A DNA stretch of 64,000 bases from Aromatoleum toluvorans. Lineage in GTDB: Bacteria > Pseudomonadota > Gammaproteobacteria > Burkholderiales > Rhodocyclaceae. The stretch lies in NCBI RefSeq assembly GCF_012910905.1, contig NZ_WTVN01000001.1:124001-188000 (forward strand), written 5' to 3'. This document shows, in pieces, positions 12,616 through 64,000 of the stretch. A model generated the notes under the pieces. It did not search any database and was not told the DNA's origin. It saw only the letters and a list, made by a program, of their open reading frames with translations. The position numbers and the translations under genes are program-made. Positions within the stretch are counted from its first letter, which is position 1. Each line of letters starts with the position of its first letter.

Positions 12616-12633
12616 ACTTGGAGCTGTCCCCGT

Positions 12634-12650
12634 TTGATGGACGCCATCAA
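12634..12650. terminator. Weak hairpin between convergent genes
   Basis: TTGATGG-ACG-CCATCAA forms a 7-bp stem with a 3-base loop in the gap between the convergent nitroreductase and VOC genes, overlapping the stop of the latter. There is no T-tract, so intrinsic termination is uncertain. Confidence 0.25.
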
Positions 12651-13645
12651 GGGCACTGCGGACGCGCTTTCCAGTTGCCGAAAGGGTTGAAAATGAAGTC
12701 GTCGATATTGCTTGCAAAGGCTTCGGTCAATTCCATATGGAAGCCGAGCCTTGGCATCAGATCAACGATCCGCTGCGGAGCGAGATGTTCCGGCAGGTTC
12801 TCACGACCGACCAGTTTGCCGAAATCGAGGGAGAAACTGCGCAGATCCCGCACATTCTGTCGCGCCAGCGCCGCCACGGTCGCGGGCATGTCGCGCACCA
12901 GCTAGGTGATGTTGTGAATGGCGCGGCCTCGGCGCGCCAGCAATTGCGCCCAGGGGGAGTCCTCTGTCTTCGGGCGGCAGTATTGAAGAACCACATTGCC
13001 CAGATTCACATGTACGATATCGAGGGAACCTAGGCTACTGAGAAATTGAGCGAAGCTGCTCTCGACCTTCCTGGAGCCGAACAACCGCTGCAACAGCGCG
13101 CAGGGATCGTCCAGATCATCGACGGCGAGTTCGACATGCAAAAGGGGGGACAAATTACCGAACAGCGCATCGCCCGGTGGCTCATCGTCGCCCGCAACCT
13201 TCGAACTGCCGCTGGCGCCCTCGATCAGCTCGATGTTGAAGCCGAGACGCTCCATCGTCGCAAACACACAGACCGGCGCCTCGACTGGACCTGTGGCGGC
13301 CTGCAACACAATGTCCGAGCGTTCGAGGATGACGATGCCCTCCTGCGCAAGTTCAGTCACCGCGGACGCCAGGTCCTCGACGAAAAACGCCAAGCCATCA
13401 ACCTGCGGCCCCTGTTCCTTGAGTCGCCGATGAAGTCGTCCGCCCGCCGGCCTCGGCTGGACGAACTGCAGCCGGACGTCACCGAGCCCCGCATGCAATA
13501 TCCGCGTCGCACTCTCCTGTTGCAAAGATGAAGATACCCGTTTCAACACCGGGGCGTCGAAAACATCGCCGAGCAAGCGCACCGCGGCATCGGCGTCATC
13601 CACAATGGCGCTGATATGGCTCAGGGCCGAGAGTCGGACCGACAT
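12647..13645 (-). pseudogene. VOC (glyoxalase/bleomycin-fold) protein interrupted by an amber codon
   Basis: Two tandem vicinal-oxygen-chelate modules. The first starts LSALSHISAIVDDADAAVRL and the second LLHVELAVDDL. The frame stops at TAG (12902-12904) directly after GRAIHNIT and then continues without shift as LVRDMPATVAALARQNV to a natural stop at 12647. The family pattern (I-x-H-I-[AT]-Y-L-V-x-D) suggests that the stop replaces a Tyr codon. The full length would be 332 aa, of which 247 are made before the stop. AAAGGAGG precedes the ATG at 13645. VOC proteins of this kind include methylmalonyl-CoA epimerase-like enzymes; the role here is unknown. Confidence 0.75.
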
Positions 13646-58560: not shown

Positions 58561-59427
58561 TCAGTCGATTTGTCTGGTTCCACGACATGCAGGATAGGCC
58601 GTGCACCCCCAGAACTCGCTGCCCGCATTGGCGCCGCGGTTCGCAATGCGCTTGACCATGGGTTTGGCGCAGGTCGGGCACTCCGGTGTGAGAGTAGCAT
58701 CCACCGTTGCCGGCGTCGGCGGCTGATCGGTCTCCCGCTCCGGGGTTTGTCCCTTCGCGTTTTGCGCTTGGCGAATCAGCCCGTGCAACAAGGGTCCGTC
58801 AATGAGCTTCAGGTTGCGCCCTCGCGCAAAGCGAGTCGCCTCTTCGGTAAATCGGCCAGACGTAACCACGAAGCCGCCTGCCGCGCCTTTGGCTGCCATT
58901 ACGCCGTAAAGCTCGCGCACCACCTCCACCCCTACCTTGTAGGCCTTCCACTGCTTGCATTGCACGAAGAACTTCTCCGTACGCTTCGAAAGCACCAGAT
59001 CGACGCCGCCATCGGCGCCCCCGCCCCCTGTTTCTACCACCTGGTAGCCCTGCAGCCGGAACGCCTCGCCCACCAGCATCTCGAATTCGCGCCAACTCAT
59101 GACGTCGAGCACATTGGCCGCCTTGCTCTGGCCGACGTTGGTGATGAGCTTGCGACGCTCCCGCCGTCGCCACGCCGACATGCCTGCACCCGCCACGCAA
59201 ATCAGCGGCAAGAGGTATTGCCCAAAAGTCGCCAAGGTCTTCCAGAGCGTCTGCGTCACCATGGTTCCCATCTCACCCGGCTTGACGGCCGCGACCACCT
59301 CTTGGCCGGCCATACGATGTAGGACGAGATACGAGACCGCAGCCAGCGCCACACCAGCCCACCAAGGCAACATGGCCACGATGTCCATCAAGTCTTCGGC
59401 GGGGCTCGTTTTCCTTCTACGTGCCAT
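58561..59427 (-). CDS. Mrr-like restriction endonuclease with membrane segments and zinc ribbon
   Basis: 288 aa. Two hydrophobic segments (about 18-37 and 70-84) precede an Mrr-type nuclease domain with MSWREFEMLVGEAFRLQGY, the active-site D143 in GGVDLVL and Q156-x-K158 in VQCKQWK. A topoisomerase-type zinc ribbon follows with C250, C253, C275 and C281. Membrane-anchored Mrr proteins of this kind are thought to cut foreign or modified DNA. It lies 41 bases from the HNH gene, in the same direction as the other nuclease genes, at the island border next to the GGDEF-EAL gene. Confidence 0.85.
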   Translation of the reverse strand: MARRRKTSPAEDLMDIVAMLPWWAGVALAAVSYLVLHRMAGQEVVAAVKPGEMGTMVTQTLWKTLATFGQYLLPLICVAGAGMSAWRRRERRKLITNVGQSKAANVLDVMSWREFEMLVGEAFRLQGYQVVETGGGGADGGVDLVLSKRTEKFFVQCKQWKAYKVGVEVVRELYGVMAAKGAAGGFVVTSGRFTEEATRFARGRNLKLIDGPLLHGLIRQAQNAKGQTPERETDQPPTPATVDATLTPECPTCAKPMVKRIANRGANAGSEFWGCTAYPACRGTRQID

Positions 59428-59468: not shown

Positions 59469-60191
59469 TCACTGCCTGAACACTTCGGCGCGATGGAAAC
59501 CCATGTAGCGCTGGTGCTGCGAGGTCAGGTAATCGACACGAAGTGAGTGTTGAAGGTTGAACAAGACCAAGGCCTCATGAGGCAGCGTGGTCGACACCAG
59601 CAGCTCGCCCGCGTCATCAAAGCTCACCCATCCACCGTCGAAGAGCGCATCCAGATGCGGAGCGAACAGTAGACCATTGAACACATCGAGCCGCTCGTCG
59701 TCCGAGCCGCACAACGCCCAAGGCTTGATGTGGGAGGCCCTCAGCAGTTCCGGAACGGAAAGGCCGGTGACGCAGCATCGGCCCCGCCAGTAGTCCAGCA
59801 ACGCTCGTCTGAATAGATCCTGCCCCACGCGCTGAACCACGAGGCGCTCTGCTTCCGTGGATCGCGGCATAGCCTTCGTCGCCCGCTCGAACTGTGCTGC
59901 GACGCGATTCGGCATCGTTCGAGCCGTCGCTGCAGCCCGCTCGAGCGTTGCATACAGCGCCGGGATTCCATCCGCGAGCGTCCAGCCCTCTCGTGCAAGC
60001 GGTAGGCCTTCCAGCAAAGTCGAATCGCTCGCACGCACCTCGAAACGGGCATCCCGTATTAACCGCACTTCCAAGGTCTCAGGAAACCTAGTCGACCGAA
60101 GGATCAGGCCGCCTTCTTGCAGCTCTGGCGGAAGATCCAAGCCGCAGTCGGCGGCGGCTTTCTCGATGCGGGTGCGGTCCAAGGGCATCAT
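59469..60191 (-). CDS. HNH endonuclease-domain protein
   Basis: 240 aa. The C-terminal half has the HNH_2-type motif: CCVTGLSVPELLRASHIKPW, then RLDVFNGLLFAPHLDALFDGG, with histidines and an asparagine placed as in the HNH_2 (COG3440) restriction-like family. The N-terminal half is a separate alpha/beta domain of unknown role. Two adjacent ATGs (60191 and 60188) are possible. It is 12 bases downstream of the DUF262-HNH gene and probably co-transcribed with it. A restriction/defence role is inferred from domain and context. Confidence 0.8.
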   Translation of the reverse strand: MMPLDRTRIEKAAADCGLDLPPELQEGGLILRSTRFPETLEVRLIRDARFEVRASDSTLLEGLPLAREGWTLADGIPALYATLERAAATARTMPNRVAAQFERATKAMPRSTEAERLVVQRVGQDLFRRALLDYWRGRCCVTGLSVPELLRASHIKPWALCGSDDERLDVFNGLLFAPHLDALFDGGWVSFDDAGELLVSTTLPHEALVLFNLQHSLRVDYLTSQHQRYMGFHRAEVFRQ

Positions 60192-60203: not shown

Positions 60204-61442
60204 TCAGTCGGCGCCTTTTGCCAGATTGCATGCCGGACAAGCTACCTGCCCGTTTTCGACTGTGGTCGCACCCCCCTTCGACCAAGCCACCTTGTGGTCG
60301 CAGTGCCAGTCATCCCACTCGACGCGAACACCGTCGCACTTGATGCGCACTTGGCAGGTTTGGCTGTCCCGGCGAAATACCGCCAGCTTCTGCACATGCG
60401 TGAAGTCGCGCTGGTTATCCTTCAGCGGCAAGGCCGGGAACAGCTCAAGCAGGTGGCGAAGCATGAAATCCATCCGGAAGCGGATGGATTCCTGCGCGTC
60501 GGTACTGTGACTGATGCGTTCCTTGTAGGTTACCCACTCAGCGTCGCCATGGTCCTCATCGAGTGCCTCCTGAGTGCGACGCTTGGCTTCGAAATCGAGG
60601 AACCAGCCCCGCAGCTCCGGCTTGATGTCGGCGATCGCGTACACACGCTGAAGCTCGGCAAAGACGCAGTACAACGCGATAGCATTGTAGCGCTCCAGTT
60701 CCGGCGTCTTTTCCGGGAACACCTCCGCCATGAGACCAAGCGTGCGGCGCACAGCCTTGGAGGTGGCGCCGTTTACGTCGAACTTTTGATTCGCCTCGTA
60801 CATCCGGTTGAGGTCGCTATTCTTGACGTTGACTGGCCCGCCGGCAAGCTCCAGGCACACCATCTGCGCAGCAATTTGGTCGTGCGTGAAGCGTGTGTTC
60901 GCGAAGCCCACGCGCCCGAAAAATTCATGCTGCGTTAAGGAGCGCACGAACTCACGCATGACGCCCGGCATTGCGTTGCGTTTCTCCTGCGCCTTAAGCG
61001 AGGTGCCGTTCTGCAGACGGAGGAACATCTCTCGTACTTCGTCTTCGTCGGTGTCCTCGAGCACGACGATGTCGAGCGCATAGGTGTCGAACCGCACGCG
61101 CAGGTCGTCTGGCAGGTTCTCATAACCACACCCTGCCGTAGGCATCCCTTCGACAGGCTCCACGTCCTTCGGCAGCCTGAAATCCCCGTCTACGAAGCTC
61201 CAGATGGCCCGCAATCGCTGCTGCCCGTCAACAACGTCGTAGTGATCTGGGGTGCCCGGCAACTTGCGCCAGTACATCTTGGGCACATCGTAGTCGCGCA
61301 GAATAGTGTCGATGAGTAGCTGCTTCTGCGCCGTTGTCCAGACTGCGGGGCGCTGAAAATCGGGGTTGGTGTCGATGCGCTGTCGGATGCCTTTGGCGTT
61401 GGACAACGTACCCAGGGGCCACGGTTTCTTGTTGGTCTTCAT
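60204..61442 (-). CDS. DUF262-HNH domain protein (GmrSD-like)
   Basis: 412 aa. The N-terminal DUF262 part has IDTNPDFQRPAVWTTAQKQL and the signature VVDGQQRLRAIWSF (ParB/Srx-like NTP-binding/hydrolysing fold). The C-terminus is an HNH nuclease with paired cysteines in HCDHKVAWSKGGA, then ENGQVACPACNLAKG. DUF262 proteins with nuclease domains include the modification-dependent GmrSD enzymes and other antiphage proteins. The order DUF262 then HNH in one chain fits this class, though it is shorter than GmrSD fusions. Confidence 0.85.
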   Translation of the reverse strand: MKTNKKPWPLGTLSNAKGIRQRIDTNPDFQRPAVWTTAQKQLLIDTILRDYDVPKMYWRKLPGTPDHYDVVDGQQRLRAIWSFVDGDFRLPKDVEPVEGMPTAGCGYENLPDDLRVRFDTYALDIVVLEDTDEDEVREMFLRLQNGTSLKAQEKRNAMPGVMREFVRSLTQHEFFGRVGFANTRFTHDQIAAQMVCLELAGGPVNVKNSDLNRMYEANQKFDVNGATSKAVRRTLGLMAEVFPEKTPELERYNAIALYCVFAELQRVYAIADIKPELRGWFLDFEAKRRTQEALDEDHGDAEWVTYKERISHSTDAQESIRFRMDFMLRHLLELFPALPLKDNQRDFTHVQKLAVFRRDSQTCQVRIKCDGVRVEWDDWHCDHKVAWSKGGATTVENGQVACPACNLAKGAD

Positions 61443-61484: not shown

Positions 61485-64000
61485 TCAAGCCGGTCTGCCT
61501 TTGTAGCCAGCCGGAGCAGCCTTGAGTTCCTTCGCGACTTTCCCTGAGCTGGTCGATTTGAAGGGGGCGGGGTCAATCTCGAAGACGCTCACCGCCACCT
61601 GGTTGTTGCCGTGAACGTGAGCAATCAAGCGCTCGTGCTTGGGGAGCGGTGCCTGCGCAGTAGAGCCACCAAACTCACCCGAGTTGGCCAACACCACTGG
61701 TTGGTACATATGAAAATGCAGGGCTGCCACCATGTTGTCGAAGGTCTGAACATCTTGGTTCAGCGCTGCGACCAGAAACATGTCGGACTTGTCCCGCAGG
61801 TCGGCGACCAAATCAAGGTCGGTCGCGTCGTAGCAGATGGCCGCCGCAACACGTGTTCGCGTCTTTGTTCCAACGGGTAGCTCAACGAGCGTCAGATGTG
61901 GGCGATACCCCTTCACGCCCATTGCCCGTTCCAGCTTCATCGGATGAAGCTTCCCTTGCCAAGCGTATTGGATGCTGCGCCCGTGGCCTGGCGACTCGGT
62001 TCTGATGAGCCACAGGCCTTGGTTTATCGGTGCGCCGAGCTTGGCCGAATGCAGGAACGTGAGGCCGGCAAAGATGTTCGAGCGCAATTTGTCGGAAAGC
62101 CGGCGGAGGAGGAAAATATGCTCCGGATGCACGGCCAGCTCAGGGAACAAGATGACATCAACTACTGGGTTCTCGCCGTCATCATCCCTAAGTTTTGGCG
62201 GCTGTGCGGAAGCCCACGTGCGTAGCTTCTGATACGCCAGTCTGCAGACCTCAGCCAAATGCCGCCTGTGTTCGGCAAGGACGCCAGGCGTCCAGTGGGT
62301 GGGGTCTTTGACGTCGAACTCATCTTTTCTTGGACGCATCGGCTGGACGATAGCGACGCGCAGAGGCCTGTCTTGCAGTGCGGCATGGTCGTCAGTCGGC
62401 ACCACATACATCGGTGTTTTGCTGCGCACACCGAACAGCGCTCGCTGTTCAACAATTCTCCGCTCGATGAACAGCAGTAGCTCCTCCGGCGTACGTGCTG
62501 CTCCCGCTGCCACCGCATCATTGGCCCGGAACTCGACACCCGGCCATTGGAGTAATGTCGAAAGCAAGCTGGAGAGCCATGGAGAGACCGGGCCAGGCTC
62601 GTCCGTCAATCCTCGCCCGGAATTCAGCAGCCCAAACCGGCGCTTGAACCACGTACTGCGGAGACCCGAGTAGCGCCCCACCTCCTCGGTCACCAGATAC
62701 CGTCGGCTGGTGAAGTCAAACTCGCCGGTCAATGCCGCCCGAAGAATCCGGCCCAGCCCGTAGAGCCATGCCTTGTCTTCGCCTACCCACGGTGGATTGG
62801 CATACAGGGGGTTCGGCGCCTCATTGCCCTTGAACGGCAACACAGAGAGGAACTCCGTCTCCTCGGGTAACGCCAGGACTCGTGACCAGTCGGTGCATTC
62901 CAAGGTGACGTCACTTGCGCTCAGGCCCGCGCTCAAATGCTTCTGGATACCGTCAGCCCTCAGCAGCGCTTTCGCTAGCATCAGGACACCGTTTTCCTGG
63001 CCGAACACGTTGTCCGCATCCAACATGATTTGGAGTAGCGGACGCTGCGCCCGGCGAGGCGTGCCGAAACGTTTTGCAGGCGGCTTCCGATTGGCCTCGA
63101 TAAGTGCATGGGGCACAAACTTCTTCCATCGGGGGGCTCTATTACCCTTTGAGTTCAACGCTGCCATCACGAGGTCGGGTCGGTTGAGGGCAACAGTCAT
63201 GACGATCACGGCCTGATCGTCTTCGTCTTTCGTTAATCGCAGCCCTTCAGCCAGCCAGACGCCGAACCGCCTGGAAGTCGGACTGAACTGCTGCGCGACC
63301 AGTGCAAGGGGTAGGGCCTCGATCAGGTCTCGCGAATACGTTGGTTCAAACATCATCGTGCGCTGAAGAGCCTTGTATGCCGATGCCTCAGCAGGCATCT
63401 TCCTTCGAGATGCTGCGAGCGATACGTCGCCAATGGATGCCAGATACAAGTAGGCCTGCTGCAGCAGGTACCAAGGCGAGGCGTCGCGCTCAACGATGAT
63501 GCGCCGAGCCAGCACTCCGAGATCCTCACGGTAGCCAAGGATGTCAACCGACTCCGGGTACTCCTCCTCATCTCGAAAACCCGTTTCTACGGCCCCCGCC
63601 CGAAGCAGGTCTGCGACGACATACTCGGCCACTCGCACTTGTCTCAGCCCCTCGCTATCGAGGCCATCGAGTGCAGCGAACAGCTTGACGCCAAGCGCTT
63701 CCACTACCGGCGCCAGCAGCTTGGGGTGAGGGTAAAGGTCCATCCCACACCGCAGCAGCAGAGCGAGCGACGGGTTCTCCGCCCAGCACTTGATGAGCTT
63801 GCGGGCCGTCGATTCGAACTCGTGCGCGAGTGCCATTCCGTTGGTTACCCGCTCGCTCAATGCCTCACCCGCGTCAGCAGGCGCGGTGATGTCAGTCATT
63901 GCCAACCGATGGCGCATTAGCTGCGCCAAGCGCGTGGCCACGAAGCGCTTGACGGTATCGTCGCGGACGTCCGTGTTGGGCACAGCGATGCTGGCAAGAC
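61485..64000 (-). CDS. Large protein with C-terminal nitrilase domain, N-terminus outside window (possible DRT1/UG1-like)
   Basis: At least 838 codons are visible; the frame is still open at the right edge, and the GTG at 63983 need not be the true start. From about residue 555 (counted from that GTG) a nitrilase/C-N hydrolase domain is clear: RVAIVQPMRP, E615 in FPELAVHPE, K678 in GKLHPMK and C717 in AAICYDATDLD give the Glu-Lys-Cys triad in order and at normal spacing. The preceding 550 residues are mostly helical with no motif I recognise. Known defence proteins fuse an N-terminal reverse transcriptase to such a nitrilase (DRT type 1/UG1), but no RT motif is inside the window. The three nuclease genes downstream support a defence context. 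Confidence 0.65.
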   Translation of the reverse strand, partial: LASIAVPNTDVRDDTVKRFVATRLAQLMRHRLAMTDITAPADAGEALSERVTNGMALAHEFESTARKLIKCWAENPSLALLLRCGMDLYPHPKLLAPVVEALGVKLFAALDGLDSEGLRQVRVAEYVVADLLRAGAVETGFRDEEEYPESVDILGYREDLGVLARRIIVERDASPWYLLQQAYLYLASIGDVSLAASRRKMPAEASAYKALQRTMMFEPTYSRDLIEALPLALVAQQFSPTSRRFGVWLAEGLRLTKDEDDQAVIVMTVALNRPDLVMAALNSKGNRAPRWKKFVPHALIEANRKPPAKRFGTPRRAQRPLLQIMLDADNVFGQENGVLMLAKALLRADGIQKHLSAGLSASDVTLECTDWSRVLALPEETEFLSVLPFKGNEAPNPLYANPPWVGEDKAWLYGLGRILRAALTGEFDFTSRRYLVTEEVGRYSGLRSTWFKRRFGLLNSGRGLTDEPGPVSPWLSSLLSTLLQWPGVEFRANDAVAAGAARTPEELLLFIERRIVEQRALFGVRSKTPMYVVPTDDHAALQDRPLRVAIVQPMRPRKDEFDVKDPTHWTPGVLAEHRRHLAEVCRLAYQKLRTWASAQPPKLRDDDGENPVVDVILFPELAVHPEHIFLLRRLSDKLRSNIFAGLTFLHSAKLGAPINQGLWLIRTESPGHGRSIQYAWQGKLHPMKLERAMGVKGYRPHLTLVELPVGTKTRTRVAAAICYDATDLDLVADLRDKSDMFLVAALNQDVQTFDNMVAALHFHMYQPVVLANSGEFGGSTAQAPLPKHERLIAHVHGNNQVAVSVFEIDPAPFKSTSSGKVAKELKAAPAGYKGRPA

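Follow-up and report, generated by a model that had tools for sequence, protein, structure and literature searches.

The minus-strand reading frame at the edge of the window, the whole 64,000-nucleotide stretch analysed here, very probably comes from a DRT1 gene (UG1, class 3 DRT) split by an IS3-family insertion sequence and makes up the C-terminal two thirds of that gene. This kind of gene is already known and the present copy is interrupted; the interesting part is the genomic context, and the ARMADA-type embedding of DRT1 is the aspect worth following.

The reading frame at the window edge

The frame at 61485–64000 (minus strand) is open and runs off the window with no upstream stop inside it, as the initial annotation had described. 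Numbering from the visible GTG puts its intact nitrilase triad at exactly E615, K678 and C717, and the proposed layout of about 550 helical residues followed by a nitrilase domain was borne out by an AlphaFold2 model of the C-terminal piece (C piece). The suggested DRT1/UG1 identity proved right. The frame matched the PADLOC profile Drt1a (E = 9e-255, profile positions 405–1176 of 1176), the single PDB chain matched by phmmer was 9yfd_A (Defense-associated reverse transcriptase 1; E = 4.8e-81, its residues 480–1227 of 1229), and a reverse transcriptase (RT) with YVDD lies upstream. Given these E values, chance resemblance to DRT1 is dismissed on sequence grounds. The Pfam CN_hydrolase model scored 12.5 bits against a cut-off of 23.2, so the nitrilase is divergent.

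Beyond the window we used the locus L002 (contig positions 181001–200000; window position equals L002 position plus 57000). DRT1 coding continues to window-equivalent 64175 (L002:7175), where the insertion sequence begins, and the complete C piece comprises the priming-serine region, an alpha-helical repeat and the nitrilase domain; its bare open frame measures 912 aa versus 896 aa matched, with about 16 codons extending into the insertion sequence. The IS3-family element (1,367 bp, plus strand) occupies window-equivalent 64176–65542 (L002:7176–8542). It is followed by the RT piece (446 aa, minus strand, window-equivalent 65540–66880, L002:8540–9880), with YVDD at residue 387 and matches to Drt1a (E = 9e-143, profile positions 2–351) and 9yfd (E = 7e-69). 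The RT half that the initial annotation proposed to look for to the right of the window is therefore present, but not on the nitrilase frame, because the element lies between. The two fallbacks offered with that proposal, a start codon just outside the window with no RT and a new RT-less nitrilase architecture, are ruled out by this arrangement.

The element carries an IS3-type orfA (family judged by eye) and an orfB with Pfam matches to rve, HTH_21, rve_3 and rve_2, and is bounded by imperfect terminal inverted repeats and a 3-bp duplication, ATA, on either side. Insert and duplication together make 1,370 bp, and the two DRT1 frames are offset by exactly 1,370 mod 3, which indicates a clean insertion. 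In a Drt1a profile search of the genome, the RT piece covered positions 2–352 and the C piece 350–1176, with no gap; since the profile is complete apart from the insertion, this is a cleanly interrupted DRT1. RT and nitrilase do not form the single uninterrupted polypeptide of DRT1, and we accordingly file the locus as an interrupted gene and not as a working DRT1. The genome holds one full-length copy of the element and two short partial matches (40 of 140 first-look candidates scored), and a stray 35-bp sequence at window positions 12624–12658 is 94% identical to its right end, with no match there for the remainder. An inverted repeat with 23-nt arms (91% complementary) lies at L002:8428–8498, at the 3′ end of the transposase gene; Rfam (gathering thresholds) and tRNA searches of L002 returned nothing.

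Functional residues and the effect of the insertion

In another DRT1 member, the RT adds semirandom, untemplated single-stranded DNA to a serine of its own protein, and the self-primed DNA drives assembly into tetramers and into dormant filaments; when a phage infects, the nitrilase is freed and abortive infection follows. S402 is the priming residue of 9yfd, and its lid residues K1219 and A1223 are essential (PMC13275509). S402 aligns, beside a 2-residue gap, with the LSG-motif serine of locus L006. This serine corresponds to Ser22 in the C piece and is invariant in 4 of 4 and 24 of 24 aligned sequences. The larger alignment comprises the C piece and 23 of 80 named DRT1 loci, these being the best 80 of 187 and leaning towards the query. 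All 24 sequences share the nitrilase Glu, Lys and Cys (E679, K742 and C781 of the C piece, C781 aligning with C1116 of 9yfd) as well as E749, which we take to be the fourth catalytic residue. In the C-terminal lid, K885 and A889 match K1219 and A1223, and the counterpart of T1220 is Ala. AlphaFold2, run with 24 sequences, modelled the 896-residue C piece (mean pLDDT 78, with a weak stretch at 489–526) as mostly helical between residue 2 and about residue 580 and as a nitrilase fold thereafter. Foldseek matched the nitrilase part to amidases and nitrilases (nitrilase-superfamily folds); 9yfd is missing from the PDB copy that it used, and the link to 9yfd rests on sequence.

Like 9yfd, the window copy thus combines an RT with YVDD, an aligned priming serine, a helical repeat, a Glu-Lys-Cys nitrilase and the lid Lys and Ala; unlike 9yfd, it is IS3-interrupted and belongs to an ARMADA-type operon, where an SMC-like ATPase gene precedes it. 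The known functional residues, from the YVDD and the aligned priming serine to the nitrilase triad and the lid pair, are still encoded. The insertion, however, separates the polymerase site from the priming serine. The polymerase fragment is therefore left without primer and effector, and the effector fragment without its polymerase. RT-inactive DRT1 is reported to be monomeric, non-defending and non-toxic (PMC13275509), and by analogy this strain has probably lost its DRT1 defence. Apart from the insertion, neither fragment shows decay, which points either to a recent insertion or to continued use of the fragments. The remaining ARMADA-type genes may be functional, as each is one long open frame.

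We think it improbable that the split DRT1 works as two polypeptides, an RT fragment associating with a priming-serine, helical and nitrilase fragment and priming in trans. Both fragments are open outside the insertion, and splitting alone need not kill the system, since in Pseudomonas sp. Irchel 3E20 and P. aestuarii (L070:8654–12653 and L071:8543–12653) purifying selection acts on a DRT1 made up of two ORFs. There the stop of ORF1 overlaps the ATG of ORF2, which has a Shine-Dalgarno-like GGAGAG, and dN/dS between the two loci is 0.14 (728 codons) and 0.07 (557 codons) by plain Nei-Gojobori pair estimates, pointing to purifying selection on both ORFs. That split, however, falls within the helical repeat and keeps polymerase and priming serine on one chain, whereas the two are separated here. 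For the C piece, the first ATG falls within the insertion sequence, where no ribosome-binding site is evident by eye, and a promoter and terminator scan of L002:7100–8700 found none. Among the best 80 of 187 homologues, 73 consist of one unbroken ORF of 1,195 aa or more, and none of the other seven (L040, L051, L060, L064, L070, L071 and L093) was seen to be split at the equivalent point, the start of L040 being too close to a contig end for its split position to be judged. The Pseudomonas split itself seems to have arisen once, in a small clade, because two unsplit relatives of ORF2 exist (91% and 76% identical; open frames of 1292 and 1291 aa); a sample of 298 Pseudomonas genomes gave five matches at E ≤ 1e-30, namely L070's own and four with frames of 1292 to 1335 aa.

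The source is a draft assembly of one genome in 117 contigs, which could favour an assembly error over an interrupted gene, but we consider it very unlikely that the gene is really intact: the element has a target duplication and lies inside a 388-kb contig as the single full-length copy, which argues against a collapsed-repeat misassembly. The insertion could be polymorphic. An RT-less nitrilase system or an ordinary metabolic nitrilase fusion is scarcely credible, for although the window frame itself lacks an RT match and Pfam RVT_1 is confined to the other ORF, this reading is refuted by the upstream RT with its Drt1a and 9yfd matches, by a profile that spans the insertion with no position missing, and by frames that are in phase once the insert is counted.

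The gene block around DRT1

The interrupted DRT1 belongs to a co-directional block on the minus strand. Upstream of it, in window-equivalent positions, stand a YprA/DruE-like helicase (1,850 aa, 76719–82271; DEAD, Helicase_C, MZB and DUF559), a DpdE/DrmD-like SNF2 helicase (905 aa, 73884–76715), a PglX/DrmMI-like methylase with an NPPW motif (1,670 aa, 68868–73880) and, directly before DRT1, an SMC-like ATPase (659 aa, 66877–68856). Downstream, 42 bp after DRT1, comes a gene for a DUF262 (GmrSD_N) and HNH endonuclease-like protein (60204–61442; Pfam GmrSD_N E = 4e-19, HNH E = 2e-9), followed by an HNH_2 nuclease gene (59469–60191, Pfam) and an Mrr-type restriction endonuclease gene with a Top1-type Zn-ribbon (58561–59427; Pfam Mrr_cat E = 1.6e-33). 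The Mrr gene is perhaps the last of the block, as suggested by its strand, shared with its neighbours, and a gap of 41 bp. With these nuclease genes as neighbours, the guess of a defence island made in the initial annotation held. Profiles of the DUF262-HNH and Mrr proteins found no relatives at the other DRT1 loci.

Further genes of this sort lie upstream of the operon in the same genome: another SNF2-type helicase (L106:11406–13694) and a DUF6094 methyltransferase (L106:16292–17767) indicate that the defence island continues. An AbiEi-type antitoxin gene (E = 4e-115) is located at L106:9522–10319, and an AbiEii gene adjoins DRT1 in locus L072.

The block resembles ARMADA Type I, for which the order YprA-like, BrxHII-like and PglX-like is given in PMC12458937. 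Shared with it are the co-directional YprA-like (DruE-like) gene, the BrxHII/DrmD-like SNF2 gene and the PglX-like methylase gene with NPPW; unlike ARMADA Type I, the window operon adds the SMC-like ATPase, DRT1, DUF262-HNH, HNH_2 and Mrr genes, and the terms 'reverse transcriptase', 'nitrilase' and 'DUF262' are absent from the main text of PMC12458937 on ARMADA. The YprA homologue of ARMADA Type I ends in a Vsr-type nuclease; at the C-terminus of the YprA-like helicase here, DUF559 matched at E = 1e-4 (residues 1781–1827 of 1850), and MZB matched at E = 4.5e-10. ARMADA Type II was rejected, as the gene order is wrong and the fourth gene is the SMC-like ATPase instead of a GajB-like helicase with a RelE domain.

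The modelled SMC-like ATPase (mean pLDDT 85, pTM 0.63) has SMC-type heads and a coiled coil. Its top Foldseek match was 9a6c, and the next seven were entries containing LmuB of Lamassu (including 9uxh, 3.5e-14, and 9hqu, 2.5e-13); identity to the LmuB structures is 11–14%, global superposition is poor (rmsd about 25 Å) and LmuB profiles matched weakly (E = 7e-6). Lamassu consists of LmuB with an LmuA effector and usually also LmuC. The ATPase is like LmuB in its fold; unlike in Lamassu, no convincing LmuA or LmuC is adjacent among the matches listed, the sole LmuA-named match near DRT1 being the Mrr gene (E = 0.015), with no LmuC among the best 25 matches listed for three proteins. The ATPase might belong to Lamassu, but such membership is unsupported. 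A Drt1b partner was likewise sought, and none appeared among the best 25 matches listed per protein.

Recurrence of DRT1 in ARMADA-type loci

Within the best 80 of 187 DRT1 loci, of which 11 have less than 1.5 kb upstream, 12 have a co-directional methylase gene ahead of DRT1 (L028, L030, L034, L035, L038, L044, L056 and L062–L066). The SNF2 helicase is seen in 11 of them, L064 beginning inside the methylase; the SMC-like ATPase occurs in ten (not L030 or L065) and an HNH_2 gene downstream of DRT1 in 11 (not L030). A YprA gene is within reach only in L030, L065 and L110. DRT1 identity to the window copy ranges from 35% to 74% across the linked loci, of which L064 and L066 are near-copies. With 14 rows set aside, ARMADA embedding amounts to 12 of the 66 loci that have at least 5 kb upstream; the SNF2-methylase pair is missing upstream in 54 of these 66, and L082 and L095 carry a lone SNF2-type helicase elsewhere. 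On a quick DRT1 tree (81 rows, SH-aLRT support only), the ARMADA label needs 7 changes; shuffled labels needed 12.3, and none of 500 shuffles came as low. All 7 are forced by starred branches, and the count is still 7 without the unassessable rows. The link is thus clustered, in two separate DRT1 clades, and was repeatedly gained or lost. The article texts searched hold no mention of a DRT1-ARMADA link.

From the side of the operon, methylase matches at E ≤ 1e-60 were found in 19 of 399 genomes of the order, and SMC-like ATPase matches at E ≤ 1e-20 in 6 of 399, own genome included in both. For 12 of the other 18 methylase matches, we examined the surrounding 14 to 20 kb; the greedy longest-ORF calling used there, as for the upstream part of the window's operon and for the linked DRT1 loci, may miss small genes. 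HNH_2 directly follows the methylase in L111, L112, L117 and L118; the ATPase stands between the two in L113, L115 and L116, and ATPase plus DRT1 in L110. In L108, a dGTPase-like gene and DUF262 precede a distant HNH; L114 contains another ATPase-like ORF (by eye), L109 showed nothing recognisable, and the contig of L107 stops after the ATPase. DRT1 is present in one of these 12 loci (L110, seemingly the same Vogesella locus as L062) and looks like an optional cargo of ARMADA-type loci; this, like the 54 loci without the SNF2-methylase pair, tells against DRT1 and ARMADA being tightly coupled. Outside ARMADA, it comes immediately after Type I specificity or restriction genes in L074, L079 and L089, and an LmuB-like ATPase with ABC-3C components (middle component 5) in L037, which indicates that it is nested in other defence operons too.

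Mobile elements were encountered at other loci. In Polaromonas sp. AET17H-212 (L064:6308–9553), three adjacent tyrosine-recombinase-like ORFs (by eye), presumably a RIT-like trio, interrupt an ARMADA-embedded DRT1 before YVDD; in the near-identical sister L066, DRT1 is intact. In Vogesella (L110:1874–3152, same in L062), a transposase-like ORF stands next to a short HNH_2 ORF (143 aa), as if another mobile element had cut the HNH_2 gene.

Among 200 relatives, the C piece was found in its own genome and two others, where the nitrilase region alone matched (29% and 27% identity), and it had no match in the 16 same-genus genomes listed; DRT1 would have been acquired by the window lineage or lost in others. 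Full-length single-ORF DRT1 occurs in three others of the 399 order genomes. Drt1a matches in 89 of 399, mostly RT or nitrilase alone, but 3 of 14 control genomes also match, so such partial matches are not DRT1. No relatives were detected in phage records at E ≤ 1e-5; plasmids gave 10 records, one covering at least 80% of the query, and three relatives on viral contigs were among 31 pattern matches.

DRT1 has been characterised as a single-gene system (PMC13275509). Tentatively, and with more doubt than conviction, we suggest that ARMADA Type I operons could recurrently carry it as an exchangeable effector cargo, placed between the methylase or SMC-like ATPase on one side and HNH_2 on the other. 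An abortive RT-nitrilase layer, which the LmuB-like ATPase might trigger, would then stand behind a direct, restriction-like one, and mobile elements would repeatedly disarm the costly abortive layer and spare the rest. The insertion point between polymerase and priming serine is relevant to the choice between cis and trans priming by DRT1, and the repeated embedding offers a testable case of direct and suicidal defences built into one operon.
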